Shown here piece by piece: positions 14,261 through 38,309 of a DNA stretch of 64,000 nt. Position numbers and translations under genes: made by a program. The notes beneath the pieces are model-generated. The model did no database searches. It was not told the DNA's origin and was given only the letters and a program-made list of their open reading frames with translations. Source of the stretch: Rhodoflexus caldus (lineage in GTDB: Bacteria > Bacteroidota > Bacteroidia > Cytophagales > Thermoflexibacteraceae). Location: positions 124,001 through 188,000 of the forward strand of contig NZ_JAJPRF010000004.1 in assembly GCF_021206925.1 (NCBI RefSeq). Direction: 5' to 3'. Every line of letters begins with the position of its first letter. Positions within the stretch are counted from its first letter, which is position 1.

Positions 14261-14308
14261 CTGCTTTCAAAAATTTAGACCAACGACTCATGTAATCACA
14301 TTTGTTTG

Positions 14309-14868: not shown

Positions 14869-17721
14869 TCAGTAAACAAGCAGTTCTATGCGCTCATTTT
14901 CTGCACGACCGTTTGCATCGTTGGGCGCAAGAGGGGCAAGCGAACCTACGCCGCGTGCCTCTATGCGGCTTTCCGATACATTGAACTTTTCAATCAGTCG
15001 CCGCGCAACGGCTTTGGCACGTTGGTCGGAAAGCAGCAAGTCGGCTTCTATACTTTTGCCTTTGGCAGTATGCGCCACAATTACCAACTTCAACGAAGGC
15101 TGCTCGGCAAGCAGGCGGGCAATGAGCGCCAAGGCGGCATCGCTTTCTGCCTTCAATGCGGCACTGTTTTCGTTCTCAAACAGAATGTTTTGCATCACAA
15201 CTTTTCCCTGTGCGGTCAAATTGCGGAACATGCGCTTGGCTACCGTTTCCGCATCGGCGGATTTGCTGCCTGCGGTGCCTTTTTCTACCACAATCAGCTC
15301 GTAGCTGTTGCCAAATGAACCGACTTGCACCCAATAGTAGTTTGCCCCGTCAAAAAATTCCAGCGTAGCGGTTGCCCCATCGTCGCGGATGGCTCTGCCG
15401 CCGTAGGACTTGGCAAGGCTGACATAATGGCGCACAACTTGCTCATCGGGCACGGGCGAAGCGTTGGCATCTGCCCATGTGTAAACCATTTGGTATTTGT
15501 AGCCCATTTGCCCGGGTGTGAGCGGGTAGTCGCCTTCGCTGTAAGCGGTAATTAGGTAGCCGGGCAGGCGCTTCATCAGGCGGAAATCGGCACTGCCCTC
15601 CGCATCGGCTGTGGGATAGATGCGCGGCGCAACGGCATCGGGCGCAATGCCCAACTCGCTGATTTGCTCGGCTGCCGAAGGGGAAATAACGCCTGCACTT
15701 GCCGATGCCCCCTGCACCAACTGACCGCCGCCGCGTACTTGCTCAACGGTGTAGGGTTTGTTTTGGGCAACGGGTTGTGAATAGTCGCGGTTGGGGTCTT
15801 TTTCTACAACCACCAACTCGTAACTTCTGCCAAACGAACCTACCTGCACCCATCGGTACACGTTGTCGCGGGTATATTCCAGCGTGGCAGTCGGTCCGTC
15901 ATCGCGGATGATTCGCCCCTTGTATTGCTTGACAAGATTTTTGTAGTAGCCTATGACGTCTTCATCGGCAGGCGGGGCACTTGCCGCATCGCTCCAAATG
16001 TAATTGATTTGGTACTTAATGCCGCTGCGCTTATAGCCCATGTAGAAATCCTCTTCGCGGTAGCTGTTGATAACGTAGCCGCTGCGGCGAGGCAAACCTT
16101 CGTAGTCGCGGGCATTTTCGGCATCTGCCTGCGGAACGGGCACGGGGCGTGCGGTTGCAAGCATTTCGCGCTGCTCGCGGGAAAGCGTCGGGGCGCTTGA
16201 AATGGTTTGTTCGTCGGCTGCCCTCGTTGCCGTGCGGATTTGTACGCCCGACCGCTCCTCCCCTACTTCGTAGGGCTTATTTTGGGCAATGGATTGGGTG
16301 TAATCGCGGTTGAGGTCTTTTTCTACGACAATGAGCTCGTAGTTAAACCCGAATGACCCGACTTGTACCCATCGGTAGATGTTGTTTTCGGTGAACTCTA
16401 TGGTAGCGGTTGCTCCGTCGTTGCGGATGACCCTGCCGCCCAGTGCTTTGACTTTCCCGATGTAATAGGCTACCACCTCCTCGTCGGCGGGCGGTTTGAT
16501 GCGCGGATTTTCCCACAAGTAGTTGATTTGATACTTCAAGCCGCTCAACTTGTAGCCCATGTAAAAATCTTCGGTTTTGTAGTTACTGATGACATAGCCT
16601 TTGAATCGCCCCAGCGGGTCGTAGTCTTTTGCACCTGCCAAATCTTGCGCAATGTCGGGTTGCGATTGAGCCGTGATAACCTTTTCGGGTTGTTGCTTGG
16701 GCGTTTTTTCTTCGGCGACGGTCGGTTGCGGCTCAACGGCAGGGGCTTCCTTTTTCGGCTGTTCTTTGGGGACTGCCGAAATTGCGGTTTCCTGTTTCTT
16801 GGGCTGCTCGCGGGGCTGCGTTTTTTGCTCGGCGGGCTTGTTTGCTGCTACTTCGGTTTTGGCAGGTGCATTTTCTACAATGCGCTGCTTTTCGGCGGGC
16901 ACAGGCTGTACTACTTCGTAGGGCTTGGACTTTTGCGCATACTGCGTGCGACCTGTCAGGTCTTTTTCCACGACAATTAATTCGTAGCTTGTGCCAAAAC
17001 TGCCTACCTGTACCCAGCGGTACACTTGGTCTTTGGTGAAGTCCATAGTAGCGGTTGCCCCGTCGTTGCGGATGATTTTGCCGCCATAGCTGCGCACTTT
17101 GGCGATGTAGTGCTGTACGACGCGCTCATCTTTCATCGGGGTTTCGCCCGATTCTACGTCAAACTTGTAGTTGATTCGGTATTGATAGCCCGAAATCTGC
17201 CCGTTGGAAAAGAAATTTTCTTCGCCGTAAGAGCCGATATAGTAGTTGGGCAGGCGCGGCAAGAGGGGATAATCTTTGCTGCCGGGCGCATCTTGGGGTA
17301 CATCGTCGGCAAGGACATCGGTTTTCGGGGTATCCTTCTCAATGCCAATCAGTTCGTATGAACCCAAGCGCGATTCGGTAATCTGTATCCAAAAGTCTTT
17401 GCCGTTTTGAGTGTATTCAAAAATCTGTTGGTTGGGTTGTCGCTTTTGCGCTTTGCCGCCTTTGGCTTGGGTGAGTTGCAGGTAATAGTCCAACACGGCA
17501 ACAAAGGCAGGCGGATTGCTGCCTTTGAAGTTGTATTTGATATGGATTTTTTCGCCGCGCTTATTGCCCTGCACCATAAACGGCGTTTGCTGGGCATAGA
17601 CTGCCTCAAAGCCCTCAAAGGGCGGGAATGGCTCTATGTCTTTTGCACCTTGCGCCCGTGCGGTGATAACGGCAAAAAATGCCCCGATGATGCCTGCCAA
17701 TAGTTGTATTTGTCTGTTCAT
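14869..17721 (-). CDS. OmpA-family protein with five internal repeats
   Basis: Periplasmic protein of 950 aa. Residues 1-24 are a signal peptide ending ITARAQ. Then come five units of about 105-110 residues at roughly 25-132, 148-257, 364-473, 537-646 and 710-815. Each contains a GY...Y strand, (I/V)(R/K)(N/D)DG(A/P)TAT(L/M/I)(D/E)(F/Y), (Y/W)RWVQVGSFG and SYEL(I/V)VVEK; the first unit is the most diverged. The repeat resembles the DUF4892 type found next to OmpA domains in other bacteria, but I hold that loosely. The linker at 258-363 is rich in Pro, Lys, Glu and Gln. Residues about 840-950 form an OmpA C-terminal peptidoglycan-binding domain (LVIVAHTAKGKS, LSDQRAKAVARRLIE). The start at 17721 is chosen because it opens the signal peptide. 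Confidence 0.85.
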   Translation of the reverse strand: MNRQIQLLAGIIGAFFAVITARAQGAKDIEPFPPFEGFEAVYAQQTPFMVQGNKRGEKIHIKYNFKGSNPPAFVAVLDYYLQLTQAKGGKAQKRQPNQQIFEYTQNGKDFWIQITESRLGSYELIGIEKDTPKTDVLADDVPQDAPGSKDYPLLPRLPNYYIGSYGEENFFSNGQISGYQYRINYKFDVESGETPMKDERVVQHYIAKVRSYGGKIIRNDGATATMDFTKDQVYRWVQVGSFGTSYELIVVEKDLTGRTQYAQKSKPYEVVQPVPAEKQRIVENAPAKTEVAANKPAEQKTQPREQPKKQETAISAVPKEQPKKEAPAVEPQPTVAEEKTPKQQPEKVITAQSQPDIAQDLAGAKDYDPLGRFKGYVISNYKTEDFYMGYKLSGLKYQINYLWENPRIKPPADEEVVAYYIGKVKALGGRVIRNDGATATIEFTENNIYRWVQVGSFGFNYELIVVEKDLNRDYTQSIAQNKPYEVGEERSGVQIRTATRAADEQTISSAPTLSREQREMLATARPVPVPQADAENARDYEGLPRRSGYVINSYREEDFYMGYKRSGIKYQINYIWSDAASAPPADEDVIGYYKNLVKQYKGRIIRDDGPTATLEYTRDNVYRWVQVGSFGRSYELVVVEKDPNRDYSQPVAQNKPYTVEQVRGGGQLVQGASASAGVISPSAAEQISELGIAPDAVAPRIYPTADAEGSADFRLMKRLPGYLITAYSEGDYPLTPGQMGYKYQMVYTWADANASPVPDEQVVRHYVSLAKSYGGRAIRDDGATATLEFFDGANYYWVQVGSFGNSYELIVVEKGTAGSKSADAETVAKRMFRNLTAQGKVVMQNILFENENSAALKAESDAALALIARLLAEQPSLKLVIVAHTAKGKSIEADLLLSDQRAKAVARRLIEKFNVSESRIEARGVGSLAPLAPNDANGRAENERIELLVY

Positions 17722-17784
17722 AGACAGCTTTCGGTTAATCGCTTTTACAATCTGTTTCCCCAAACGCCATTTTTTTGTTGAAAG

Positions 17785-17989
17785 CACGCGAATTTTGCGG
17801 TAGAATCTTGGAAAAATTAAATTTGATGCGATATTGCAATTGTAGGGACAACGCATGCGTTGTCCCTACGTCGCATAACCGCATCGGAAAAATACAATTC
17901 ACGAAATCTCATTTTCGTGCAAGCGGTATCATTTTGATTTTTTGCGCAAAACACACTGATTTTCAATTAAATAGCAAATAATTTGCATT
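17785..17989 (+). repeat. 205-bp dispersed intergenic repeat, copy 1
   Basis: Aligns over its whole length with the reverse complement of 54590-54796. Nearly identical blocks are AGAATCTTGGAAAAATT, TGTAGGGACA, GCATCGGAAAAATACAATT, CATTTTCGTGCAAGCGGT and AAAACACACTGATT. The middle holds a perfect 28-bp palindrome at 17842-17869 (half-site GTAGGGACAACGCA). No reading frame spans it. It sits upstream of the five-repeat OmpA gene. Confidence 0.8.
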
Positions 17990-18232
17990 AAAAGCACTGT
18001 TAGGGTCTGCGACGTGCAACGGCCGACCGCTAACAGGCTTTTACAATCTCCCCGCCTGCCAGCGGATTTACCCGAAAAACCGCCGGCGGGGACTTCATCC
18101 GCTGACGGGGTTTTTACTGCATCCCTGCCAGCGGCTGCAAGCGCGCCTACAAGCCCTGTCAGCGGATTTGGCAACGTGCGATTTTGTCTGCCCAAATGCT
18201 TCATCAAACCCAAAATCCCCGCGTGCTAACTG
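17990..18232. repeat. REP-like cluster of short alternating repeats
   Basis: A GC-rich 243-bp gap between two OmpA genes. Units based on CCTG(C/T)CAGCGGaTTT occur in one orientation at 18055, 18124 and 18154 and in the other (CCGCTGACGGGGTTTT, or CCGCTAACAGGCTTTT) at 18027 and 18099. GTGCAACGGCC (18014) and GCAACGTGCG (18171) are further related pieces. This arrangement resembles REP/BIME-type intergenic repeats. A 94-codon frame on the minus strand here looks accidental. Confidence 0.55.
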
Positions 18233-20233
18233 CTAATACGACAAGATAATAATTTCCGTCCGACGGTTCAATTGGTGCTCTTCTTCGCTGCAATCGGAAA
18301 AGTCGGGGCAATCTACTACCAATTTGTTTTCGCCGAAAGAGTTCACAATCAGTCGGGCAGGGTCTATGCCGCGCATAACCAAGTAGTTGTATGCCGAACG
18401 CGAACGGCGCTGCGCCAAACGGATGTTGTACAGGTTGTCGGCGCGGGTGTCGGTGTGCGAAGAAAGTTCCACTTTCAGCGACGGGTACTCGTTCATCAAA
18501 GCAATCAGTTTGTCTAACTCGCGTGCCGCATCGGGGCGGATGTTGAACTTGTCAAAATCGTAATAGATGTTTTTCACCTCAATTACTTTCACGTTCGGGT
18601 CGCCTTTGTAGCGATAGCGCGGGCGACCGGTAGATTCGGAAACGGGCGGTTTGCCCTCGCCGCCTTTGGCTACCACAGGCTCGGCAGGCTCTAAGGGGAT
18701 AAAAATTGTATCGCTAACATCTAAGCCTTTCAGCAAACAGGTTGCCAGCACCGAATCGGGGATGACGGCGTAGCCATCGGCGAAACCTTCTTTGACCGCG
18801 TGCAGCTTGTAGTTGGACTGAAACAAGGGCTTGAAGGTAAACAGCGTATCGTTCAAAGCCTGTATGCGGGTATTTGCGCCCGTTTCTTCTTCTATTGCCT
18901 CTACTTTTGCCTTTGTGATGATTTCTTTGGTGCGGGCATTGACGGCTGCGATGATGAATTTGCAACGCTTTACGGTGAAGCGGTAAATATCGTCGTCGCC
19001 TTTGCCGCCTTCGCGGTTGGAAGTGAAATAGCCCTCGTCTAAGTCTTCGCTGTAAATCAGAGCAAAATCGTCTTGACTGCTGTTGATGGGCGCACCCATG
19101 TTGCGCGGGGCGGTAAATTTACCGTTTTTGCTGCGCGCCACAAAAATATCCAATCCGCCCAGCCCGGGATGTCCGTTAGAGGCAAAATACAAATCACCGT
19201 TTTCGTCAATAAACGGAAACATTTCGTTGCCTTTGGTATTGATTTCAGGTCCTAAGTTCTGCGGCTTGCTCCAACGCCCGTTGCGGAATACGGACATGTA
19301 AATATCCGTGCCACCGTAGCCGCCGGGCATATCGGAAACGAAATAGAGCGTTTGCCCGTCGGTGCTCAGTGCAGGATGCCCCGTAGAATATTCGTTGCTG
19401 TTGTAGGGAAACTCAGTAATGTTCGTCCAATCGTCGGAAGCGTCCGTTTTGGTATTGGCAAAGTACAATTTCAGCTTGTTAGTCTTGTCTTTGGATGTTT
19501 GATACTTGCCGTTAAGGTAGTTGTTGCGCGTAAAGATGATGGAATCGTAAGAACGGTAGAACGTTACGGGACCTTCGTGGTAGCGCGAATTGATGCTTTT
19601 GCGCAGGCGGTCGGCACTGTTGCCGCCGCTTTGGGCAAAGTACAAGTCCAAATACGGTGTTTTGTTCCATTGGAAAGTGTGCTTAATCGGCGTTGTTTGG
19701 CTCGGGGTGCGGTTGGAAGCAAACACAATTCCGCCACGAAAAAACATGGGGCTGAAATCTGCCTGCGGCGAATTAAAGCCGACCGTGTCTATCACATAGC
19801 GGGCGGAATCCTGAAAGAATCGGCGCATCACCGAATCGGCATAAGCGCGGGCAAAACGGTCGCCGCGGGGGTCGTTTTTCACTGCCGCCGAATAAGCGGC
19901 AAACCATTTGCGCGACTCGGCATATTTGCCGTTCATTGCCAATGCCTGCGCATAGTAGAGCATGTTGATAGGCTGCGACTTGGCGTTCTGCACTACTTTG
20001 GCATACCACTCTTCGGCTTTTTTGCTGTCGTTGATTTTGCGGTAGCTGTGCGCCAACTTTTCGGTTGCCTCAAAATTATTCGGATTAGATGCCACGATGT
20101 CTTCAAACATCATAATGGCATCGGCATAATGGAACTGCTCGTATTTGCTGTTGGCTAATTTCATGCGCACCTTTTGCGCATGGGCAAAGGCGGGCAGCGT
20201 GAGCAACAGGAATATGGTAAAAACGTAACGCAT
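18233..20233 (-). CDS. PorE-like OmpA-family protein (TPR, PD40 propeller, OmpA)
   Basis: Exported periplasmic protein of 666 aa. The signal peptide covers residues 1-20 (ends FAHAQ, with no lipobox Cys). A short TPR region follows (YADAIMMFEDIVASNP, LAHSYRKINDSKKAEEWYAK), then a beta-propeller with PD40 repeats such as GYGGTDIYMSVFRNGRW and SNGHPGLGGLDIFVARSKNG, a carboxypeptidase-regulatory-like domain (IIAAVNARTKEIITKAKVEA) and a C-terminal OmpA domain with IYYDFDKFNIRPDA and SSHTDTRADNLYN. The same order is known for PorE, the peptidoglycan-binding T9SS component, and for partners of PorP/SprF. The gene starts 37 bp downstream of porP/sprF and is surely in one operon with it. Start at 20233, where the signal peptide begins; an upstream frame from 20314 runs into porP/sprF. 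Confidence 0.88.
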   Translation of the reverse strand: MRYVFTIFLLLTLPAFAHAQKVRMKLANSKYEQFHYADAIMMFEDIVASNPNNFEATEKLAHSYRKINDSKKAEEWYAKVVQNAKSQPINMLYYAQALAMNGKYAESRKWFAAYSAAVKNDPRGDRFARAYADSVMRRFFQDSARYVIDTVGFNSPQADFSPMFFRGGIVFASNRTPSQTTPIKHTFQWNKTPYLDLYFAQSGGNSADRLRKSINSRYHEGPVTFYRSYDSIIFTRNNYLNGKYQTSKDKTNKLKLYFANTKTDASDDWTNITEFPYNSNEYSTGHPALSTDGQTLYFVSDMPGGYGGTDIYMSVFRNGRWSKPQNLGPEINTKGNEMFPFIDENGDLYFASNGHPGLGGLDIFVARSKNGKFTAPRNMGAPINSSQDDFALIYSEDLDEGYFTSNREGGKGDDDIYRFTVKRCKFIIAAVNARTKEIITKAKVEAIEEETGANTRIQALNDTLFTFKPLFQSNYKLHAVKEGFADGYAVIPDSVLATCLLKGLDVSDTIFIPLEPAEPVVAKGGEGKPPVSESTGRPRYRYKGDPNVKVIEVKNIYYDFDKFNIRPDAARELDKLIALMNEYPSLKVELSSHTDTRADNLYNIRLAQRRSRSAYNYLVMRGIDPARLIVNSFGENKLVVDCPDFSDCSEEEHQLNRRTEIIILSY

Positions 20234-20270
20234 AAGATTTGCGATTGAGGATTGACGATTGGGGATTGGT

Positions 20271-21203
20271 TTAAAAATAGCGCGGCGTAATAATGCGCGA
20301 TTTGCCAAAACCAAACTCGTAGCGAATCATGATTTCATGCGTGCCGGACGTGTATTTCCCCAGCGGCGTAAGCGTATAGTCATAGGCATAGCCTAAGGAA
20401 AGTTGTGGTGTTACCTGAAATTCAAACAGGGCATCAATGGAATCAAACGAACGGTAGGAAAGCCCCACGGCAAACATATCGTAGAGCCACAAGTTGGCAT
20501 TCAAATCAAGTTCCAACGGTGCGCCGTCCACGTATTTCAACAGGAACGAAGGGCGCAGTTTCAAGCCTTTGGTGATGTCAAATACATAGCCCGAAGTCAG
20601 GAAGGCATGGCGATACTGTCGGGCGCGGTTGTTGCCGATGAACGCCACGTTAGTTTCCCCGTTGAGGTTGTTGGTCAGAATATTGGGCACGGACAAACCT
20701 ACGTAGAAACGGTCGGTGCGGTAATAAGCCCCCGTTCCGAAGTTGGGCAGCCAGCGATTGACCACCGAAGCAAACGAAGGGTCAAAAACATCAGGGGAAA
20801 AGTTGTGCACCACCGAAGCAAAATCGGCGCGGTATTGCATCACCGAAGCCTGCAAACCCAGTGACAACACGCCTTTGCGCATTTTGAGCATGTAGGCATA
20901 ATTAAAGCCGATGTTATTAGTTTCCGTAACGCCGATGCGGTCGTTGACGAAAATCAGCCCCAGCCCGATGTTGTCTTTTTTGACAGGGGCATGAGCCGAA
21001 AAGGTGGTCGTAGTCGGTGCGCCGGGGATGCCTACCCACTGCGTGCGATGCAGCGCGGTAATGTTGATAGCCTCGCGGCTGCCCGCATAGGCAGGGTTCA
21101 GCACCAAGCCGTTGAACATATACTGTGAGTACATGGGGTCTTGCTGCGCCCAGAGCGGCAGACTCGCAACAAGAAGAAGGGAAAAGAGTAGCGTTTTTTT
21201 CAT
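20271..21203 (-). CDS. PorP/SprF family type IX secretion membrane protein
   Basis: Outer-membrane beta-barrel of 310 aa. The signal peptide ends PLWAQ and is followed by QDPMYSQYMFNGLVLNPAYAGSR, the hallmark N-terminus of the PorP/SprF family (DPxYSQYMFN and NPAYAG are given here as the key blocks). Later blocks AHAPVKKDNIGLGLIFVNDR and LGLQASVMQYRADF, and the final RYEFGFGKSRIITPRYF, are also typical. In Flavobacterium, SprF-type proteins are needed to export and attach the giant adhesin SprB to the cell surface. Here the gene follows the giant T9SS type B protein by 90 bp and precedes a PorE-like gene, so the same partnership is very likely. Confidence 0.94.
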   Translation of the reverse strand: MKKTLLFSLLLVASLPLWAQQDPMYSQYMFNGLVLNPAYAGSREAINITALHRTQWVGIPGAPTTTTFSAHAPVKKDNIGLGLIFVNDRIGVTETNNIGFNYAYMLKMRKGVLSLGLQASVMQYRADFASVVHNFSPDVFDPSFASVVNRWLPNFGTGAYYRTDRFYVGLSVPNILTNNLNGETNVAFIGNNRARQYRHAFLTSGYVFDITKGLKLRPSFLLKYVDGAPLELDLNANLWLYDMFAVGLSYRSFDSIDALFEFQVTPQLSLGYAYDYTLTPLGKYTSGTHEIMIRYEFGFGKSRIITPRYF

Positions 21204-21241
21204 GGCTTGCCCTTGGGTTTTATGGATTTGCCCTCTTTGCG

Positions 21242-21274
21242 AAACCTGACGGGCTTTGAAAACCCGTCAGGTTT
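21242..21274. terminator. Perfect-stem hairpin after the giant gene
   Basis: Inverted repeat with arms AAACCTGACGGG (21242-21253) and CCCGTCAGGTTT (21263-21274). On the minus strand it begins 20 bp after the stop codon of the giant gene and ends about 40 bp before porP/sprF. It may attenuate read-through so that the giant gene and porP/sprF are expressed at different levels. It lacks a long U-tract, so a dispersed palindrome without terminator function remains possible. Confidence 0.6.
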
Positions 21275-21293
21275 GCCGAAAGGCATGTTTGAA

Positions 21294-24200
21294 TTATCGC
21301 TGAATGGTTAAGAAGTCCACTATCGGTTTGCTGCCGTCGCGCAGGTCTACGATGAAGTAGTACGTGCCGTCGGGTACTTTTTCGCCGATGACAATGCCTA
21401 TGCCTTGCGCCGTGCCGTCCCATGTGTTTTTGTAATGTTCGTCTTCAAACACAAGGTTGCCCCAGCGGTTGTACACGCGCAAGTGGATGTCGTAGCGGTC
21501 AGCCCCCAGAATCTCAAACTTATCGTTCACGCCGTCGCCGTTGGGTGAGAAACCGCGCGGGATGAACACCTGACGACATTGCAACACATCTACCGTTACT
21601 TTACCTTCCGTACACTTGCTCAACGGGTTGCCGTTGTCGCAAACGGTGTAGGTAAACTCATCCTGTCCGGTGAATCCTTGCGGCGGCGTATAGATAAAGC
21701 TACCGTCGGGGTTGATAGAGAATACACCACCGTTTTTAGAACGTGCCCCCGTTACGGCACGTACCGATACGCGGTCGCCGTTCGGGTCGGTTACGTTTTG
21801 CAACACGCTGCCCCTGATTTCGGTACAGTTGTCGGTATTTTCGCGGCGCGGCGTTGCCACAGGCGGCTGGTTGGTGCAGAGGAACACGTTAATGAAAATT
21901 GTTCCCGTAGCACACAGCGCAGGGTTGCGGTTGTCGCATACTTGATACGTAATGCGTTCCTGTCCTTCTGCATTCAATGCCGGGCGGTACGTCAGTCTGC
22001 CCGTAGCAGAGAGGTTCAAGATGCCGCGCAGCGGCGTTACCAAATCAGAGATAACGGTTACGCGCACAGGGTCGCCGTCTGCATCTACCAACGGAATTTC
22101 CAGCACTTGGTCAATGTTGGTGCAGTTGTCGGTGGTCAGGGTAATATCCGGTGCACGCGGCAGACGATTCGGACAAGCCGTTACGTTGAAAGTAATCGTC
22201 GCACGTGAGCAGAGCGGCGGGGTTACGCGGTCGCAAACTTCGTAGGTGAACTCATCCGTTCCCGTAAATCCGAAAGCAGGTGTGTAGCTAATCGTACCGT
22301 CGGCTGCAATACTGATGCGTCCGCCGCGGCGGGTTGTTGCATTGGTTACAACCGTTACGGTCAGTTCGTCTTCATCGGGGTCGCGGTCGTTGGCTAAGAT
22401 ATTGCCGCCGTTGTTTTCGCTGCAACCCTGCACGGTGAACAGGTCATCTACGGCAATCGGTGCACGATTGACAGGCTGTGGCACTTGGATAATGGTCGGG
22501 CTTGTTTCACGCGGGTCGCCGTCAAAGTTCGGGTCAGGGTTTTGTCCGTCCACCGAAATATCGCGCACGCGGGTGGCGTTGTGCGAACCTTCCGCAATAG
22601 CGGTATTGAAGAACGGTCCTGTGGCGCGGTTCGGAATCAGGCTTACCACAAAAGTTACCGTTTGCGATTCGCCCGGCTCTAATCTGCCGCCCGTTACCAA
22701 ATTCGGCTGTGCAGCCGTTCCGTCAAATTGTGGATTGGCTACCAACGAACCCGTTGCAGTCGGCTGACGCACAATGCTGTAACGTGCAGGTGCAGGGAAT
22801 ACGTTGGTCATATCGTCCGATACCACAATATTGGTCAGCGGTACGTTGCCGTAGTTGCGCACCGTAATCACAATCGGGATGTGGAATGCACCGTTTACTT
22901 GACGCACGGCAGGCAGTGCCTGTTTGGCTACGCCAATTACAGGGCGGTCGGTTACAGGCGGCGGCGGACAAGGACGCGCCGTAATTACTGCACGGTCGGT
23001 CAGTTCTACCTCTGGGCAAGTTATGCCGTTGGCAGAAGCAATGGCTACTACGGTCAGTTCGCGGCTTTGTGCAGGTGCAGGGATGGTAAAGCGCACCGCG
23101 CCGTCGTTGCCCATAGCACTTGCCAACACGGTTGAGCCGTTGCGCAGTTCGTAGCGAACGCCCGCACGGGTCGGCGATACGGTAATAGTTACGTTGCTTG
23201 GAATTTCATTGGGGCAGGTGCTGTATTCTGCATCGCTTACGTTTGCCTGACGCTCTGCCGCCGTGATGCCTACCACGGTAATTGCGACCTCATCGCTGCT
23301 GCCCGGGTTGCAATCGCCGCCCGTGATTGTCCAGCGGAAGCGGTAGTTGCCCGGTGCAAGGTTGCTCAATGTGGCATTAGGCGAAGTGGGGTTATTAATC
23401 GTAACGGCAGGACCTTCCACTTGCGTCCAGCGACCCGTGCCTACTGCCACAGGTTCGGCGGCAAGGCGTACATCGCTGCCTACGCAAACAGTCTGCGCAG
23501 GACCTGCCACCGCAGGCGAACTAACAGTAACGACTACATCATCCGAACTTTCAGGACAGCCGTTGCCCGTGATTGTCCAGCGGAAAGTATATGTACCCGG
23601 ACGCAAGCCCGCAATGACAGTTCGCGGATTAGTCGGCTCTTCAATGCGCGCCGCATTAGGTCCGCTGATTTGCTGCCACAAACCGCGCCCGTTGACGGGG
23701 CTGTTAGCCGCCATTGTTACGCTTGTTGCCTGACAAAGTGCCTTATCGGGTCCCGCATTGGCAGGTTCTGCCACGTTTACGGTTACATCGTCAAACGAAT
23801 CGGGACAAGAACCGCCCGTGATAGACCAGCGGAACACATAAGTACCCGGTACAAGTCCCGTAATCGGCGTATTTGCCTGCAAAGGATTGGCGATAGATGC
23901 CGTGTTCGGTCCTGAAACCTGCGTCCAGCGACCCGTTCCGCCTACGGCAGGGATGGCGCTCAACGTTCCCGTTGTGGTGTTGCAGAGGTTTTGGTCTGCA
24001 CCCGCGCCCGCAGGTGAGGCAGAATTTGCCACTGTAATGGTTACGCGGGCTGCCGCAGGGGCGCAAGGGCTGCCCGTAATGCTGTATTCAAAAATATGTG
24101 TACCCGCACCCATGCCCGTAATAGAAACCTGACTATTGCCCGGACCTGAAACGTTCAGCACGGGGCTGCCTGAACCCGTACCGCCTACGCGCAGCCAGTT

Positions 24201-30200: not shown

Positions 30201-33200
30201 CCCCGCCGAAATTGTGGAAGGCGAAACGGTTACGGTTACGAAGTCTTCGCTGTCGGGGCAGGCAGAACCCGTTACGCGCCAGCGCAACACATATGTGCCT
30301 ACCTGCAAAGTGCCACCCGTACCGAATTGCGCATTGGCAGCCGTCGCGCTTGAAAAAGTCGGCGTATTCGGACCTGAAACAACCGTCCATGTGCCCGTAC
30401 CGGGACCTACCACAGGCGTAGCGCCCAGCGTTACGGGGTTAGTCGTACCGCAAACGCTGATATCTGCCCCCGCATTGGCAGGTGCTGCCACGCGAATCAC
30501 CAAATCGTCAAATACGGTCGCACAAGGCGTACCTGTTACCGTCCAGCGGATGGTATAAGTGCCCGATTGCGTCAAGCCGCTGACGGTGGCGTTTCTGTCC
30601 AAATCGTTAGAGAATGTTACCGCGTTCGGACCTGAAACAAACGACCATCTGCCCGTTCCTACCACAGGCGGTTGAGCGTTCAGGGTAACGGTGTTGCCCG
30701 TTCCGCAAATGTTTATGTCGGGTCCCGCATCCACAATGGCGCGGCGAATGGTTACGGTGCTTTCGGAAACACAAGCACCGTTGCTCAAACGCCAGCGGAA
30801 CACATATTCGCCCGCTGCGTTCATGCCCGTAATGCCCGTAGTGGGTGAACTTGGCGTAGTGATAACGGGCGTAACGGGTCCGGATACAAATATCCATTGC
30901 CCCGTAGCCCCTGCGGGAACGGCATTGGCAGCCATAGTATAGGTAGCCGCGCAGATGTTGGCATCAGCGCCCGCATTGGCAGCCACAGGCAATTGCACGA
31001 CGATATTTACGTCGGCACTGTTATCGGGGCAACCCGCATTGCTTACCGTCCAGCGGAAAGTGTACGTGCCGATGACGTTCAGGTTATTGACTGCCGTAGT
31101 GGGCGAAGAAGGATTCACAATCACGGGCGTAGCCCCTGCCGGTGCGCTTACCAGCGTCCACAAGCCCGTGCCGAATACGGGCGGCGTGGCATCCATTACG
31201 GCGGTGTTAGTAGTGCAAAGCACTTTGTTCGTACCTGCTACGGCAGGCGAAGGCGGCTGCGAAACGGTTACGCGCACATCGTCCTCTGTCTGCGGACAGG
31301 CAGAGCCGCCGCTGATTGTCCAGCGGAAATCGTACACGTTGCCGGGGATGAGGTTGTTAACAAAGGTGTTTGCCGCATTCGGATTAACAAAGCTGCCCGC
31401 AGGCAAGGCAGGTCCGCCCACCTGTGTCCACGTACCGATTGTGCCGCTTACGGCAGGCACGGCGTTGAGTTGTACCGAAGTCGGGTTCACCGTGCCGCAA
31501 AGAGCTATATCCGCGCCCGCATTGGCAGGTGCATCGTTGAAAATCTGAATTTCATCAAAGGTATTGCCGCCCGTGCCGCATGGCGAACCTGTTACTGTCC
31601 AGCGGAACACATAAAGACCTCTGCCCAAACCGTTGGCGGTGAGCGTAGTGCCGCCTGTTCCCGATGTTGCCAGCGTCGGTACGGGACCATCGGTGAATAC
31701 CAGCGACCAGTTGCCTGCACCCACAACAGGTACTTCGGCAGTCATTACAAAGCTGTTCACGTTGCAAAGCCTTGTGTCAGCCGTGATGATATTGGCAGGT
31801 GCAGCAATGAATACGTCCACAAAGTCTTCGCTTGGCGGACAAGCCCCGCCGCTGATGGCATAGCGGAAGCGATACACACCCGCCGCAGTCATGCCCGTAA
31901 CCGTTGCGCTGTACGGACTTGATACACCCGCGGCAATTTCGGCAGGGGTAAGCGGTACGGGGGTCAGCACGGGCGTAACGCCGCTTGGACCTGATACGAA
32001 CGACCAAACCGCTGTTCCCGTATAAGGCAAGTTGCCCGCTAAGGTTGTACTTGTTGTCGGCAAACAGAATTGTTGGTCTGCGCCTGCATTGGCAGAGTTG
32101 GTAATAGTGAAGTTCACCAAGTCTTCCGAATCGGGGCAAGTGCTGTTGGTAATGCGCCAGCGGAAAGTGTAACGCCCTGCCTGTAAGTTGGTAAGCGTCA
32201 GTACGTTATTATCAGGTCCGCTAATGGTGCGATTGGCAGGCGGCACGGGCGGTCCGCTCACTTGCGACCATGCACCCGCACCCGTGATAATCGGGATATT
32301 GCCCGTCAGGGTAACGGTTGTAACATTACAGGCATCAAAATCCGCATCGGCAACTGCCTGATTAACAGGCGTAACAGTGATAACCGCTTGGTCGGGCAAT
32401 ACAACTACGCAACTGCCCGCCCCTGTTACGGGTGCAGTAACTTCTACGCTGTATGAAGTTGTCGCGGTCGGCATGTTTGCACCCGACAGCGTAAAGGTAA
32501 TATCGCCATTTGCGGCAGGTGTTTGTGTGCCGTAGGTAGTGCCGCCGCGGAAAAGTCGGTAGGTATGATTGGCTTTTGCATTGCGCACAATGATATTCAC
32601 CGAAGTTTCATTGGCGCAAATGCTGGCATCGGTAACTTCGTTGTTTTGCTCATCGGCTACGGTCAGGGTTGCGGCTGCTGAATAGTTAAAGCAACCCGTA
32701 GTAGTATTCGTTCCTCTGATACGGAACAAAGAGCCGTTCAAAGCAGCCGGAACATTGGCAATTGTCAGCGTATTGGTTGTAGCCCCGCTGAAGGTTGCGC
32801 CGAAGAATGTTCCGTTCAACACAGGGTTGAAATTTGTCGGGTCGGACGGGGTTGCAATTTCCCACTGAATGCTCAGGCTTGGGTCTACCAAGGCAGCCAG
32901 ATTTACGGTGCTGTTGGCACAAGCCGTTAAATCGGTGGGGTTAGCAACTATCGGCAGCGGATGTACGGTGATGACCATGTCGTCTTGCGTATTGCCGCAG
33001 CCCGGTGCACCCGCAATGCTCCAGCGCAGGGTATAGTTGCCCGGGCGCAAGTCAGTAATGACTGCATTATGCGCATTTGCATTGGGTATGAAGGTAGGCA
33101 CAGGCGAACCCGAAGGGCGATTGACAACCGTCCATGTGCCTGTTCCGCCACCGCCTAAGGCAGGGTTGTTGCCTGCCAGCGTTACCTCTACGCGGGTAGT

Positions 33201-36200
33201 AGTGCCGCTGATGAACTCACAAACAGCTTGGTCGGGTCCTGCATTGGCAGAGCGTCCGCTGTTTACGGTCAGCACAGGCGACTGCGATACGCAGTTTACG
33301 CCGTTGGCAGTGGTGCTAATTTCCCAACGGAAGGTGTAAACCCCGTTGCTGACGGGAATGGTTGCCGTCGGGTTGCTGATTTGCGCCCCAAAGTTGATGG
33401 TCGTAGGGCCGCTCAACTGCACCCAGCGCCCTGTGCCGCGCCCTGCCGCGGGGGCATTGCCCGTCAGGGTAACGGTTGTGGCATTACAAATATCAATCGG
33501 AGAAACCACTGTTGCCGTTGTCGGCGTAGGAATCACGGTCAGGGTAGCAGGCGCGCTGAAAGCCTCGCACTGAATATTGTTCGTGTTCTGAATGCGCACT
33601 CTGAAACGCCAGCCGTTCATAAACTCGGGGACGTTGGTCAAGTTCAGCGTTGCCGTTCCGACACCGCTATACACGCCACCGTCCGTTAAGTCGCCAAAGC
33701 CTGCACCTGAATCCACTTGCCAGCGGTATTGTACCGTACCCGGAATGGCAGGGTCTGCCTGTGCGGTAAATGAAGCACTGTTTACCCCTCCGTTATGGCA
33801 AATGGTAACATCTGATGGGTTCAAGGCCGCGCGTGGCAGCGGGTTTACGGTAATAATGGCCGTTTTGGTTACACCCGAAGCACACAGCAAGGCATCGCGC
33901 ACCGTCAAGCGAACGGTTACGTCATACGGCTGGCTCGGGTTAGATGCATTGACAGGGAAAGTGAACGTAGGACGCTGCCCCGTAGCCGTTCCCAGAATGG
34001 TGGCTCCTACGGAAAACTCCCACTCATACAATAAAGCCAAAGGCGTTCCGCCGCTGAAACTCCATGAGAAAGGCGGACGCAACACGTTAGGCGCATTACA
34101 AGCACCGGGAGCGGGTTGCGGAACTACGGGCGTTCCGCCGGGTGTGAAGCAGCGCGTGGCGGGGTCGTTAGAATTACCTGCGTTGAAGTTAGCAGGGCTA
34201 CCTACGCATATATAAGCATCGTTTTCAAAATCGGCATAGATAACCGGTGCAACTAATTGAATCGTCTTAACCTCTTCGTCTTCGCAACCAAAAGCGGTAC
34301 GCACACGCAGGCGAATCCAATAGTTACCCGCCGGAAGATTGTTGGCAAAGGTATAATTACCGGGTGCGGAAGTGATTACTTGTGTACGCACAGGCACGGC
34401 AGCCGGATTGCCCACAGGATTCACGTCAAATACATCCCACTGCCAGCGCGTAATTTGCGGAGAAAGTGTCGGCGGCGTATCAGGGTCTGGCGTACTTTCA
34501 TCGGTAACAACAAAGCTGCTGTTTTCGCAGATATTGCCGCTATTATTAGGCCAACTGAAAGCGGCGGTAGGTTTGCCGCTTACGCGAACGCGAACACCGC
34601 CATCAGGACGAATGAAAATACGACACGCAGGCGAGTTGCTGTCCTGTAAAATCAATGCCGGCTGGAATGTACCGGGGCGCAAATAGGTATGCGAAATTTG
34701 CAACTGATTACCTGCCGCCGCATATGCTGCCGCGTTGAATGCAACAGGGGCAGTAGCAGGTGTACCATCGCCAAAGTCCCACTGATAAAATGCTACATTC
34801 TGCAAGTTAGTAGCCGTGAAAGTAACAGGGTCGCCTGCACAGATATCGGTTGGTGTAAAAATGAATTGCCCGCTGGGGCCATCCACCCGAATAAAATTGG
34901 TCAGTTCGCGGACAACGGTACAACCTGCACGGCTGCGCATCGTCAAGCGAACGGTATATACGCCCGGATTGATGTAGGTATTTTCAGGGTTTTGGTCGAA
35001 GGAACGGTTGCCGTCGCCAAATTCCCAGAAATATTCCTCAATGTCTGCATCAGGGAATGGCGTGGCACGGAAACGCACTGCTGCCGGCGGACAACTCACC
35101 ACTAACTGCGTAGGCGCAAACACCGGAGGCCCTGTGGCTGCCTGTGCAGAAATAGTAGCATCAGGCGCAATCACATTAATCACGCGGCTGAATGTTACCG
35201 AACAGGTATTGCCTGCCGTAACGGTTTGTGTAATGGTATAGCTGCCCGCATTATTGTAGCGAATGACAGGGTTGGCGGGATTGCTCAAATCGGCGGTATA
35301 GTTTGCCGGAGCCGTACCAAAATTCCATGTATAAGTCAAGCCTGAACCGCCGGGGACATCAATTGCATTGCTGGTAATCTGCATATTGCTGCCCGCACAG
35401 AACGTGGTAGCAGACACATTAAAGCCGGGCGTAGGACGCGGCAACACAGTAACCTGACGGGTAACGGTTGCCGTACAAGGGCCGATGCCGTTATTATCGG
35501 CAACGGTCAGCGTTACGTTCCATGTGCCGGGGCGCAAAAAGGTATAGGTTGGATTCTGTACGGCCTGATTTTGGAACGGATTGGCAATGCCATCCTGAAA
35601 GAACCAGTTCCAAGACGTAATGGCATTGCTGTTAGGGAATACCGTAGAGGCATCCGTAAAATTCACGGGCTGCCCTACGCACACTACCGAAGGATTGCTA
35701 AAATTGGCAATGGCTCCCTGAATCGTAATATTGACCGGCGCACTCACCGACTCGGCACAACCGTTAGACTCGGTAATGGTCAGTGTTGCCTGATAGGGCG
35801 CTACGCGCGGTGCATACGTATGCGTTACCGAAGCTCCCGCGGGGCCGTTAATGGTTGTAATCGTACCGTCGCCAAAATCCCAACGATAGCTGGTAATTGT
35901 ACCGCTGGTAGTTGAGGTGCTGGTAAACCGAACAGGGGTATTGCTGCAAATCGGCCCTGAGGGGTTTGGCGTTACCGTAAACGATGGCGAAGAAACAGAA
36001 ATATTTACTGTTGCCGTTCTTTCATTTACACAACCGTTAGAACCAATGGCACGCAGACGAACCGTGTAAACACCGGGGTTGGCATAGGTATGCGACACGG
36101 GATTCCCTCGCGGGATAATTTGCACAGCCGTACCGTCGCCAAAGTCCCATTCGTAGGTAGTGGTTGCAGGCGCTGCCGCATCCACGCTGGTATTCAGGAA

Positions 36201-38309
36201 GTTAAAGGTGCTGCCGCTTACGCAGGCTACCCCTCCGCCAACCACATTGAACAATGCGATGGGGCCGTCCACATTCACCGTAGCCGTAATCGGGCTAACC
36301 GTGGGGCATCCGTTGCAATAAAAAATGGCATTAACCGTAATGGTGCCAATGGTGCGGAACTCATGCGTTACAGGGCCTACATTACCCACACCGCGTGCGG
36401 CAGTACCATCCCCGAAATCATACACTACGCTATCCGCACAAATACCCGGCGGAATATTGGGCGTAAACGTAATACCCACGCCGCCAATTGTCGCACAGCC
36501 GTTGCGGCTTGGAGTCAGCGTAATGGTATTAGGCGGAGGCGTGCCAACTTTAATTTGCTGATTGAAATTGCCCGTGCGCGTACAACCACTGGCGGTCGTA
36601 ATGGTTACACGCGGCGTGTAAACACCGGGTGTAGTATATGTATGCGAAACATCAGGGAAACCCGTAGGCGTAAACGGAGGTGCGATGCTCACTACGGGTG
36701 AACCATCGCCAAAATCAAAATCGTAGCGGATAATACCTTCTACCGAAATGCTGTTGCGTGCCGTAAAGTTAAAAGTAACGGGTGCACAGGTAGTGGTAGG
36801 CTGCGCCCCAATAAATTCCAAACGCGGAATAGCTTCTGCCAAAACCAAATTGCGCGTCAGCGTATTGGAACAGCCTGTTGTACGGTCGGTAATGGTCAAG
36901 CGAATCGGGTAAGTGCGGAACGCCGTAAAGTTGTGCGTAGGCGTTGCGGTTGTATAAATGGCTTCGCCGAATGCAAAGGCAGGGTCTGTAACGCGCCACT
37001 CATAAAGGTAGTCGGCAGGATTATTCAGTGCAGGAATTAACTGGCGCGGCCCGATGTTGCAAAGGTTATCAGGCGGATTAACCGTAAAGTTGGCATCGGG
37101 TAATGGGCGCACGGTTACATTCTGCGTTACGGTCGCCGTACAACCGTCAATAAAGGTAGTGGTTAGCGTTACGGGATAAGTGCCCGGTGTCGCATAGCTT
37201 TTGTTCGGATTTTGTGCCGTAGAGGTAGTACCGTCTCCAAAGTTCCACGCCCAGCCCACAGCACCTGCCGATGAACGGTCAAAAAACTGCTGAGAACTGT
37301 TGGCACAGTAAACAGGCGGTATATCAAAAGCAGCGATATTGTTTCTGATAACAATGGCATCGGGAACATCGCGCACCGAAGAACAACCGTCGGCAGTGGT
37401 AGCGGTCAGGCGCACGCGATAAACACCGAAGGTGTTGTATACGAACGTAGGATTTACGTCGGTACTTGTACCTGCGGGATTGCCGTTTTCGTCAAAAAAC
37501 TCCCATAAGTAACTGGCAATTACCCCCGGTGGCGGCGGGCTGGTGCGCACCGTAGAAAGGTTCTCGAAACGCGCTATGAACGGTGGCGAACAAGCAGGCC
37601 CGTTCTGCAAACGAAAAGCAGCCTGCGGCGACCAGCGCACACGGACTGCATTGGGACGAATGATAGATGCCTGACAAGTTTCACGACCGCCGGCAAAGGT
37701 TTCAACCGTCAGCGTTACCTGATAGTCGCCGGGGAAGTTATAAGTGTGTGTAGGTGTCCGAAAGGACGGGTCGGTGCCTGTAATGGTTGTTCCGTCTCCA
37801 AAATTCCACGTCCAGCGGACAATATCGCCAACCAAACCACCCGTTGCAACTGTTCCCGCTACGGTTATGTCGCTAAATGTTACCGTATAGGGTGTACACC
37901 CAATGCCGGGAGGCGCAGTGAAGTTGGGTGTAGCCCTATCATAAACAATCACCTCGCGCGTGCGTTCGCTGATAGTAACCGTACCGGCGGCATTGGTAAT
38001 GCGCAACCTGACGATATATCGCCCCGGGGCACCGTAGGCACGCTCCGGCTCGGTAATGCTCGGGTCATTGGGAATCCCTATTACAGGGCTGCCCGTACCA
38101 AAATCCCAATTGTAGCGAATAGTGGTTAAGTCAGCCGGAAGTCCTGAACTCTGGTCAAAAAACTTGTAGGTAGCTATGCCGCAACCGCCTGTCAGCGGCT
38201 CTCCTGCCGTACCTACTCGAAAATCAGCCGTTTGCGACCACAGCGGGTACCACGCACCCCACAATAAAAAGGTCAGCAAAAAAGAGAATCGGGTAACAAC
38301 TTGTATCAT
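21294..38309 (-). CDS. Giant T9SS type B surface protein, 5671 aa
   Basis: One uninterrupted 17-kb frame. Residues 1-25 are a signal peptide (ends PLWSQ). Residues about 26-1400 carry some 15 PKD-like domains, recognised by W(D/N)FGDGT and TYxxPGxYxVxLT motifs. From about residue 1590 to 5010 there are about 35 tandem units of 80-95 residues with VCADPAT, GTGTWTR and GTHTFRWT blocks; an Ig-like insert separates the second and third units. Residues about 5120-5280 resemble a DUF11-type repeat, about 5285-5577 contain three cadherin/VCBS-like units (ILANDRDPDEDELTVTVV), and the last 90 residues (FIPRGFSPNGDGVNDKFEI, YNRWGNLVFE, DGTYYFIVDL) are the T9SS type B sorting domain (CHU_C). It is probably a surface adhesin or filament similar in logic to SprB. 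Very long, Thr/Gly/Ser-rich and Cys-paired; no enzyme domain seen. Confidence 0.93.
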   Translation of the reverse strand: MIQVVTRFSFLLTFLLWGAWYPLWSQTADFRVGTAGEPLTGGCGIATYKFFDQSSGLPADLTTIRYNWDFGTGSPVIGIPNDPSITEPERAYGAPGRYIVRLRITNAAGTVTISERTREVIVYDRATPNFTAPPGIGCTPYTVTFSDITVAGTVATGGLVGDIVRWTWNFGDGTTITGTDPSFRTPTHTYNFPGDYQVTLTVETFAGGRETCQASIIRPNAVRVRWSPQAAFRLQNGPACSPPFIARFENLSTVRTSPPPPGVIASYLWEFFDENGNPAGTSTDVNPTFVYNTFGVYRVRLTATTADGCSSVRDVPDAIVIRNNIAAFDIPPVYCANSSQQFFDRSSAGAVGWAWNFGDGTTSTAQNPNKSYATPGTYPVTLTTTFIDGCTATVTQNVTVRPLPDANFTVNPPDNLCNIGPRQLIPALNNPADYLYEWRVTDPAFAFGEAIYTTATPTHNFTAFRTYPIRLTITDRTTGCSNTLTRNLVLAEAIPRLEFIGAQPTTTCAPVTFNFTARNSISVEGIIRYDFDFGDGSPVVSIAPPFTPTGFPDVSHTYTTPGVYTPRVTITTASGCTRTGNFNQQIKVGTPPPNTITLTPSRNGCATIGGVGITFTPNIPPGICADSVVYDFGDGTAARGVGNVGPVTHEFRTIGTITVNAIFYCNGCPTVSPITATVNVDGPIALFNVVGGGVACVSGSTFNFLNTSVDAAAPATTTYEWDFGDGTAVQIIPRGNPVSHTYANPGVYTVRLRAIGSNGCVNERTATVNISVSSPSFTVTPNPSGPICSNTPVRFTSTSTTSGTITSYRWDFGDGTITTINGPAGASVTHTYAPRVAPYQATLTITESNGCAESVSAPVNITIQGAIANFSNPSVVCVGQPVNFTDASTVFPNSNAITSWNWFFQDGIANPFQNQAVQNPTYTFLRPGTWNVTLTVADNNGIGPCTATVTRQVTVLPRPTPGFNVSATTFCAGSNMQITSNAIDVPGGSGLTYTWNFGTAPANYTADLSNPANPVIRYNNAGSYTITQTVTAGNTCSVTFSRVINVIAPDATISAQAATGPPVFAPTQLVVSCPPAAVRFRATPFPDADIEEYFWEFGDGNRSFDQNPENTYINPGVYTVRLTMRSRAGCTVVRELTNFIRVDGPSGQFIFTPTDICAGDPVTFTATNLQNVAFYQWDFGDGTPATAPVAFNAAAYAAAGNQLQISHTYLRPGTFQPALILQDSNSPACRIFIRPDGGVRVRVSGKPTAAFSWPNNSGNICENSSFVVTDESTPDPDTPPTLSPQITRWQWDVFDVNPVGNPAAVPVRTQVITSAPGNYTFANNLPAGNYWIRLRVRTAFGCEDEEVKTIQLVAPVIYADFENDAYICVGSPANFNAGNSNDPATRCFTPGGTPVVPQPAPGACNAPNVLRPPFSWSFSGGTPLALLYEWEFSVGATILGTATGQRPTFTFPVNASNPSQPYDVTVRLTVRDALLCASGVTKTAIITVNPLPRAALNPSDVTICHNGGVNSASFTAQADPAIPGTVQYRWQVDSGAGFGDLTDGGVYSGVGTATLNLTNVPEFMNGWRFRVRIQNTNNIQCEAFSAPATLTVIPTPTTATVVSPIDICNATTVTLTGNAPAAGRGTGRWVQLSGPTTINFGAQISNPTATIPVSNGVYTFRWEISTTANGVNCVSQSPVLTVNSGRSANAGPDQAVCEFISGTTTRVEVTLAGNNPALGGGGTGTWTVVNRPSGSPVPTFIPNANAHNAVITDLRPGNYTLRWSIAGAPGCGNTQDDMVITVHPLPIVANPTDLTACANSTVNLAALVDPSLSIQWEIATPSDPTNFNPVLNGTFFGATFSGATTNTLTIANVPAALNGSLFRIRGTNTTTGCFNYSAAATLTVADEQNNEVTDASICANETSVNIIVRNAKANHTYRLFRGGTTYGTQTPAANGDITFTLSGANMPTATTSYSVEVTAPVTGAGSCVVVLPDQAVITVTPVNQAVADADFDACNVTTVTLTGNIPIITGAGAWSQVSGPPVPPANRTISGPDNNVLTLTNLQAGRYTFRWRITNSTCPDSEDLVNFTITNSANAGADQQFCLPTTSTTLAGNLPYTGTAVWSFVSGPSGVTPVLTPVPLTPAEIAAGVSSPYSATVTGMTAAGVYRFRYAISGGACPPSEDFVDVFIAAPANIITADTRLCNVNSFVMTAEVPVVGAGNWSLVFTDGPVPTLATSGTGGTTLTANGLGRGLYVFRWTVTGSPCGTGGNTFDEIQIFNDAPANAGADIALCGTVNPTSVQLNAVPAVSGTIGTWTQVGGPALPAGSFVNPNAANTFVNNLIPGNVYDFRWTISGGSACPQTEDDVRVTVSQPPSPAVAGTNKVLCTTNTAVMDATPPVFGTGLWTLVSAPAGATPVIVNPSSPTTAVNNLNVIGTYTFRWTVSNAGCPDNSADVNIVVQLPVAANAGADANICAATYTMAANAVPAGATGQWIFVSGPVTPVITTPSSPTTGITGMNAAGEYVFRWRLSNGACVSESTVTIRRAIVDAGPDINICGTGNTVTLNAQPPVVGTGRWSFVSGPNAVTFSNDLDRNATVSGLTQSGTYTIRWTVTGTPCATVFDDLVIRVAAPANAGADISVCGTTNPVTLGATPVVGPGTGTWTVVSGPNTPTFSSATAANAQFGTGGTLQVGTYVLRWRVTGSACPDSEDFVTVTVSPSTISAGANQTLCLTSAGTTTTANLSGTAPVTGTGTWSQVGGPTLPAGSIANPNSPNTSVSNLGAGIYVFQWAVTGATCPGSAPTVTVTVAEPPRIITPPVSPICATGTTATVTVSGNVPVIGTGTWSRVSGPGAAPTISVSSSGGVSTATFSGLEVGTHVLQWAFSGTAPCTFTPAQVTVVVQPQPTLATVSPATQSVCADPASGFGSATLTGSVPAAGNTGAWSHSGPGTPTLSPSGTGGSTLNVSNLAVGTHTFTWTITNSCGTSTASATVTVNPTNAPASITAPPATTICGSPTGTINLTANAPVAGTTGTWTRVSGPGAAPAFAPNANSASVSISGLAVGTHRFQWALTNPACPANNSTATIDITVIAADPVAAIVTAPTSDVCTTGTTGLGSVNLTGNLPASGTGTWSRVSGPGTATLATSGAAGENATFSNLQPGLHTFQWTISNAVCGTTTSAQVTVRIVERDPVAAIDPAPANVCADPATNRGAVTLNGNVPISGTGTWTRQSGPGTFTLVTAGTGGRQATFSDLQVGTHVFRWTINNAACGSTFAEVSVTVQQPTPVATITGNLNVCADDPTGTLGSTILAGNNSYVGTGTWTRIGGTGDATALAITIGGTNNNVATITGMGVGTHVFQWEMTNGVCPPTSAQVTVTVNRNNPQADIAGANPTICTDPVTNLAQITLTANEPVVGTGTWTRTGGTADGTGVAIAASTTGTGNAIANITGMQPGTHIFRYTLNSGCGTTFDEITVTVNPSNPAAAIATAPGTVCTDPATGRATLTLVGNEPRTGTGTWTRVGGAGDPTGHAINTSGTFGRVATITGLLPGEHIFQWQLANSCGTSSATFTVNVEQSNPAAAIISTVNTVCTDPATQRANITLQGNTPITAGSGTWSYTGGTGSTADMVISTPNNPTANITGLQVGTYQFTWTLANSCGTSSASVTVTVNPSNPVANAGADATRCDAPGGASITLNGNAPISGTGTWTRTGGTGSPTGVIITPTGATSADVTGMGVGTHEFTWTLTNGCGTSSDVMVVTVLPTNPPANAGPNQAVCTDLATGRASATLTGNAPTVGTGTWARVGGTGNPAGIILNQSGNVLNVSNMLPGTHIFEWTLTSPSCGSTSSLVTVFVNESNPNAAITTTPPSPDICADPISNLGSVTLTGNTPNSGSGTWTRIGGTGSTSSMSLSVTGTTLNATGLGVGTHTFEWRFTSPCGSSAATYTVNIIRQNPPATATAAATQVCADAATLQGTVNLIGNAPLSGIGTWTRTAGAGTFTITNPNSPNTDVTGLAVGTHTFQWTLTNGSCASTSATVTVTVVRPNPVATANAVQASVCADPATDLGTVSLVGNAPVSGTGTWERTGGTGAFGGMTILDPNSPTTDVTGLGVGTHTFRWVLANGVCGTTQASVTVTVVRPNGAVTASAVASVVCADIATNTGSVSLQGSPVVSGSGSWSRIAGTGSFNIANVNDPNTAVSGLSVGDHTFRWTVNNGACGSGFADVTVTVVRPNPAATASSPTPVICATGGSATASLVGNAPVSGTGLWTRVSGPGMVSIADAASPSTTVSGLMAGTHIFRWTLTNGVCGSTQADVTISVTETNPPVTAAAVAATVCADAVSEVGTVTLQGSNVISGTGTWTRVSGSGTFSIANPNNPTTDVNGLAPGNHTFRWTVNNGACGSSFADVTVTVVRPNPAATAAAVATVVCANPATGLGTVSLQGNAPVSGTGTWTRTGGTGSAAAMSIASPNSPNTDVSGLGAGTHIFRWTLDNGVCGTTSADITVTITAPNPPAAITATQTTVCADVATNLGTVTLNGTVPVSGTGTWTRTGGTGSAAAMNITLGGTGNSQATVSGLGVGTHIFQWTLDNGICGTSAATITITVASPIVDIGPDQTICTNPSGTADFTLTGPVPVLGTTSWQRVGGTGSGSVIISTSGVSGSVATVTGMGPGTHIIRYTITGSPCGTIQDEVILTVVPSTISAGSDQTLCLPTGANTTDVILTGTVPIVGTGNWLRVGGTGSGSPVLNVSGPGNSQVSITGMGAGTHIFEYSITGSPCAPAAARVTITVANSASPAGAGADQNLCNTTTGTLSAIPAVGGTGRWTQVSGPNTASIANPLQANTPITGLVPGTYVFRWSITGGSCPDSFDDVTVNVAEPANAGPDKALCQATSVTMAANSPVNGRGLWQQISGPNAARIEEPTNPRTVIAGLRPGTYTFRWTITGNGCPESSDDVVVTVSSPAVAGPAQTVCVGSDVRLAAEPVAVGTGRWTQVEGPAVTINNPTSPNATLSNLAPGNYRFRWTITGGDCNPGSSDEVAITVVGITAAERQANVSDAEYSTCPNEIPSNVTITVSPTRAGVRYELRNGSTVLASAMGNDGAVRFTIPAPAQSRELTVVAIASANGITCPEVELTDRAVITARPCPPPPVTDRPVIGVAKQALPAVRQVNGAFHIPIVITVRNYGNVPLTNIVVSDDMTNVFPAPARYSIVRQPTATGSLVANPQFDGTAAQPNLVTGGRLEPGESQTVTFVVSLIPNRATGPFFNTAIAEGSHNATRVRDISVDGQNPDPNFDGDPRETSPTIIQVPQPVNRAPIAVDDLFTVQGCSENNGGNILANDRDPDEDELTVTVVTNATTRRGGRISIAADGTISYTPAFGFTGTDEFTYEVCDRVTPPLCSRATITFNVTACPNRLPRAPDITLTTDNCTNIDQVLEIPLVDADGDPVRVTVISDLVTPLRGILNLSATGRLTYRPALNAEGQERITYQVCDNRNPALCATGTIFINVFLCTNQPPVATPRRENTDNCTEIRGSVLQNVTDPNGDRVSVRAVTGARSKNGGVFSINPDGSFIYTPPQGFTGQDEFTYTVCDNGNPLSKCTEGKVTVDVLQCRQVFIPRGFSPNGDGVNDKFEILGADRYDIHLRVYNRWGNLVFEDEHYKNTWDGTAQGIGIVIGEKVPDGTYYFIVDLRDGSKPIVDFLTIQR
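23280..33530 (-). repeat. Array of about 35 PKD-like coding repeats
   Basis: Within the giant gene. Counting the (V/I)C(A/T)(D/T)P...G(T/S)GTW(T/S)RxxG pattern by eye gives about 35 units averaging roughly 275-290 bp, with a non-repeat Ig-like stretch at about 32.35-32.96 kb. Each full unit has a Cys in the first 15 residues and a second Cys about 60 residues later. Units between about 24.6 and 26.5 kb are the most alike. The boundaries given are approximate. Confidence 0.85.

Follow-up and report, generated by a model that had tools for sequence, protein, structure and literature searches.

Why a locus that encodes a giant T9SS type B surface protein, its outer membrane carrier and a peptidoglycan-binding partner should also carry a fourth gene, for a repeat-rich OmpA-like protein, is the question addressed here. 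The four genes lie on the minus strand of the window, the 64,000-nucleotide stretch of Rhodoflexus caldus DNA that was analysed, and all four open reading frames are present in the order in which an earlier note on this DNA had placed them. First in transcription order is the giant (21294..38309; 5671 aa, ~0.6 MDa), recognised from its open reading frame and profile matches. Its C-terminus is a type B sorting domain (21294..21560; TIGR04131/PF13585), which scores 45.8 bits against TIGR04131 in the protein scan and 50.8 bits in the genome search, with a cut-off of 35, and E=2e-23 against CHU_C. The PorP/SprF carrier (20271..21203; 310 aa) follows 90 bp later, as the note had it, and matches PF11751 at 294.4 bits (cut-off 22.3) and TIGR03519 at 293.6 bits (cut-off 90.55). 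The proposed 37-bp spacing to the third gene, which encodes a TPR-PD40-OmpA protein (18233..20233), holds with ATG 20233 as the start; this codon precedes the signal peptide, and the TTG at 20314 that had been listed lies too far upstream. The fourth gene (14869..17721) encodes a signal peptide, five repeats and a C-terminal OmpA-like domain. The start at 17856 is replaced by a likely ATG at 17721, ahead of the signal peptide, which leaves a 511-bp gap behind porE (17722..18232) that the earlier note did not have.

The first three genes form a trio of an already described kind. Six porP-like genes adjoin porE-like genes in F. johnsoniae (PMC9143113), and five operons in that species combine a type B cargo with an SprF-like and a PorE-like protein, for example Fjoh_3952-3951-3950 (PMC12618676); many more such trios were found here in Cytophagales. 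The order of cargo, PorP/SprF carrier and PorE-like OmpA protein in one operon is shared with the window, which differs in the 5671-aa size of its cargo and in the fourth repeat-OmpA gene, of which the parts consulted of that source (PMC12618676) make no mention. The P. gingivalis PG1035-PorP-PorE system is similarly a type B protein on PorP on a peptidoglycan-binding PorE, but there PorE is a lipoprotein and the whole complex forms part of the T9SS core (PMC9143113), whereas the window encodes a dedicated extra set with a PorE-like protein that lacks a lipobox. The F. johnsoniae gliding operon sprC-sprD-sprB-sprF also places a giant type B adhesin before its carrier. In the window, however, the two same-direction genes upstream of the giant are missing, the gene beyond it (38891-41527) being divergent and encoding a TonB-type outer-membrane protein, and the carrier has no C-tail cysteine and is followed by a PorE-like gene. 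The proposal that export, docking and anchoring are encoded together is therefore sound as regards a cargo, its cognate carrier and a peptidoglycan anchor, but not new as a combination (PMC9143113, PMC12618676), and to call the locus self-contained is an overstatement, as the T9SS translocon and motor lie outside these four genes. The genome as a whole encodes 11 type B proteins and six PorP/SprF proteins. At least one further type B cargo-PorP-OmpA cluster within it (C3:28453-31920; L004, L133 and L165) comes without a fourth gene.

The giant itself comprises a signal peptide, PKD, approximately 30 K319L-type PKD-like repeats, DUF11 and cadherin/Big_9 domains ahead of the sorting domain, and the carrier gives an indication of how such a protein is held. 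In SprF, a Cys-X-Cys motif in the periplasmic C-tail hooks the protein to the moving GldK track (PMC12635249). The window carrier has no such motif and no cysteine anywhere in the protein, and its C-tail ends KSRIITPRYF; the C-tails of its five orthologues are equally devoid of cysteine, with ITPRYF ending all six. Because the carrier lacks the cysteines through which the SprF C-tail is connected to GldK, the giant is predicted to be statically displayed and should sit off the gliding track. The sorting domain of F. johnsoniae Fjoh_3952 gave static display (PMC12618676). PorE partners have been proposed to mark non-mobile cargo (PMC9143113), and our survey of 108 PorP/SprF proteins of the order agrees with this proposal. 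Of the 66 carriers whose tail lacks cysteine, 19 have a PorE-like gene within 300 bp downstream; of the 42 with a tail cysteine, none does (Fisher p=4e-5, ignoring relatedness). Correction for relatedness leaves too few independent pairs for this exclusion to count as significant. The window carrier falls in a supported set of 30 carriers, none with a tail cysteine. Many PorP/SprF tails are of a CPxF type with one cysteine, as in two carriers of the same genome, L002 and L005, and 42 of the 108 surveyed carriers have a tail cysteine. Type B surface proteins would then have two predicted holds, a C-tail cysteine that connects to the moving track or a PorE-like tie to the wall, and the class of a carrier, track or wall, would be readable from its sequence.

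The wall tie in the window would be provided by the third protein. PorE grips meso-DAP via the side chains of Asp576, Asn584 and Arg591 (PMC7192894), and the third protein has TPR, PD40 propeller and OmpA domains all present and an intact triad, with D, N and R at the aligned columns. Its signal peptide has no lipobox cysteine and its score of 340.8 bits lies below the NCBIfam T9SS_PorE cut-off of 600; like the F. johnsoniae homologues, it is best called PorE-like. Compared with the copy in G002, a genome of the same genus (C85, L040), porE has a dS of 0.29, against 0.89 for PorP, 0.85 for the giant and 1.35 for the fourth gene, a difference that points to porE alone having recently recombined or been transferred.

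Membership of the fourth gene in this set is a matter of linkage. Strong matches to the repeat profile occur in six of 13 genomes of the family and six of 391 of the order, and are always the fourth-gene protein. The same six genomes hold the orthologous carrier, the other five copies being 69–97% identical to that of the window and the next best carrier 51%. The order giant-PorP-PorE-fourth gene, which the earlier note proposed to seek in other Cytophagales, is complete in the window and kept in four other genomes, well beyond chance. These are G002 and G003, of the same genus as the window, and G008 (Thermoflexibacter ruber) and G012, of a second genus, where at least one small ORF separates PorP from PorE. 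A scan of named genomes returned Thermoflexibacter ruber and uncultured Cytophagales, one of which bears the label Bernardetiaceae. Every complete locus has a cargo of >5000 aa, with lengths among loci of 5206–5689 aa; between the two genera the cargo body is 33–37% identical, PorP and PorE 65–72%. The sixth genome, G011, has retained PorP, PorE and the fourth gene, but each on a contig of its own and among different neighbours. Near its displaced fourth gene is a probable IS200/REP-type transposase gene, identified by eye from the start of its protein (C328:24865-25985, L041).

The displacement in G011, where the fourth gene is not beside porE, would suit an independent envelope protein that is a neighbour of the giant by chance and unrelated to it in function, as would the stand-alone character of the wider family and the gap in the window. 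This gap measures 511 bp compared with 81–212 bp in relatives, so that co-transcription of the fourth gene with porE is unsure in the window. Two kinds of short dispersed repeat, of about 90 bp and 40–120 bp, occupy positions 17900-18230, with >20 copies across the genome. The Rfam search gave no match. In five genomes the sequence ahead of the fourth gene showed no Bacteroidota-type promoter pattern, a result of little weight in either direction, and a sigma-70-type promoter scan was uninformative. A chance arrangement is nevertheless difficult to reconcile with adjacency in five genomes of two genera in which the genes flanking the locus differ, with the shorter gaps elsewhere, or with the joint absence of fourth gene and carrier from G001, of the same genus, and six other family genomes, and we consider it improbable. 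Five of the six close homologues directly follow porE, the opposite of the scattering away from such loci that the earlier note named as a refutation. The fourth gene is a new part of the locus, a linkage that rests on few independent events as the gene is found in two genera only. No description of it was found in the accessible literature, in which a single paper mentions DUF4892. After the fourth gene, at window positions 13787-14785, comes a pair of small ORFs (157 and 158 aa) that are related to each other and have no Pfam match; they adjoin the gene in G003 too and were not seen in G002, G008 or G012.

The five internal repeats attributed to the fourth protein are evident both from sequence and from structure prediction, at ~108 aa each. 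There are five copies in one genus and three in the other, a number that does not follow giant length, and the canonical repeats are 44–81% alike. The repeat has no Pfam match, and the cut-off for DUF4892 (PF16234) is reached neither by the repeats nor anywhere in the genome. Elsewhere in the phylum the matches are weaker and for the most part belong to stand-alone proteins of about 275–300 aa with a signal peptide, one repeat-type domain (two in the 414-aa L163) and an OmpA domain. A chain of hhalign profile comparisons connects the repeat to these stand-alone relatives (E=5e-10) and the relatives to DUF4892-OmpA proteins (E=1e-8); the direct match between repeat and DUF4892 is weak (59% probability), and the link runs via the stand-alone relatives. 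The OmpA tree groups the six fourth-gene proteins within the stand-alone/DUF4892 clade (support 100/99), separate from PorE, which rules out an origin by porE duplication. On the evidence of profiles and tree, the fourth gene derives from the stand-alone DUF4892-like/OmpA family, with its N-terminal domain amplified to three to five copies.

Structure prediction gives the repeat a beta-beta-alpha-beta-beta-beta-beta fold (pLDDT 95) and depicts the whole protein, with low overall confidence, as five beads on disordered linkers followed by the OmpA-like domain. DcrB, PsbP and TiME are among the best PDB structure resemblances of the repeat, all of them weak; no PDB structure matched at E<=0.001 and a PDB sequence search with the repeat yielded nothing convincing. 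The predicted fold of the repeat domain is DcrB/PsbP-like. In the crystal structure of the P. aeruginosa DUF4892 protein PA1624, the N-terminal domain is DcrB-like and the C-terminal domain OmpA-like (PMC7716261), and peptidoglycan motifs are missing from PA1624 too (PMC7716261). DUF4892-OmpA proteins share with the fourth protein this pairing of a DcrB/PsbP-like N-terminal part with an OmpA-like C-terminal domain. They differ in having a single N-terminal domain (the relative L163 has two), in showing no T9SS link and in belonging to a Pfam family whose cut-off the window repeats do not attain.

The fourth gene had been put forward in the earlier note as a possible new anchor component. While the gene is indeed a member of the locus, the claim of anchoring is weakened by the loss of two of the three side-chain ligands in all six proteins, where the triad reads ADR (D to A, N to D, arginine kept). 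The DNR triad is present in 18 of 19 PorE-like proteins as well as that of the window, in 15 of 15 complete rows of stand-alone relatives and in seven of seven DUF4892 proteins. Triad loss is not unique to the fourth gene, as L133, the OmpA protein of the C3 cluster, has a degenerate GVR. Decay of the fourth gene is ruled out by dN/dS values well below 1, indicative of purifying selection: 0.17 between the window genome (G000) and G003, 0.11 between G000 and G002, and 0.17 for the OmpA domain (G000–G003). Given triad loss in all six proteins and purifying selection on the gene, the fourth protein has most likely, to judge by its residues, given up peptidoglycan binding and retained its OmpA domain for other use, with weak or altered binding possible through the kept arginine. 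A second peptidoglycan anchor acting in parallel with PorE through an altered binding pocket would account for that arginine in six of six, for an OmpA-like domain above the Pfam cut-off (52.7 bits) and for the low dN/dS over this domain. However, all six have Ala in place of the DAP-contacting Asp and Asp in place of the Asn, substitutions absent from every complete stand-alone relative, and we regard a second anchor as unlikely.

Our preferred model is one statically displayed giant with a PorE-like wall tether, in which the fourth protein acts as a periplasmic accessory or scaffold of that anchor, and we give it about an even chance of being correct. By homology, the giant would pass Sec and then the T9SS translocon. 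Its own PorP/SprF carrier would receive it via the type B sorting domain and stay bound, as for SprB-SprF and PG1035-PorP. From the periplasm, the PorE-like protein would bind the carrier and hold meso-DAP via its intact OmpA triad, so that the giant, on a carrier without C-tail cysteines, would be fixed to the wall instead of travelling along the gliding track. The fourth protein is probably a periplasmic accessory or scaffold of PorP-PorE and not a second wall anchor. It would be soluble, with an OmpA domain under selection that may serve in something other than canonical peptidoglycan binding. Alongside the observed position, descent, residue loss and selection of the gene, a scaffold role is what we infer. 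As a multivalent scaffold or spacer, the protein might cluster or brace a very large load by engaging either a number of PorP-PorE complexes or the outer membrane from its periplasmic side. More specific, and tentative, is a lineage-specific multivalent periplasmic scaffold by which several PorP-PorE complexes are gathered or braced, holding very long adhesins in a patch. A dedicated periplasmic chaperone or holding factor, whose repeats bind the extended giant before export, is least probable and quite doubtful: it would fit the periplasmic signal peptide, the multiple beads joined by long disordered linkers and the constant presence of a >5000-aa cargo wherever the locus is complete, but other type B cargos manage without the protein, and a co-evolving binder might have diverged as strongly as the cargo body (33–37% identical between genera), whereas the repeats are 44–81% alike.

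Should the scaffold model be true, a former OmpA-type wall protein has turned into a new component of T9SS type B display. The locus provides a specific example, within an adhesin gene set, of repeat expansion and loss of wall-binding residues in an OmpA-type wall protein, and Thermoflexibacter ruber is a cultured host that carries it. A different association of carrier and OmpA domain occurs elsewhere in the window genome, where a 480-aa PorP/SprF barrel is fused to an OmpA domain (L006, G000 C11:19259-20569), possibly combining carrier and wall anchor in a single chain.
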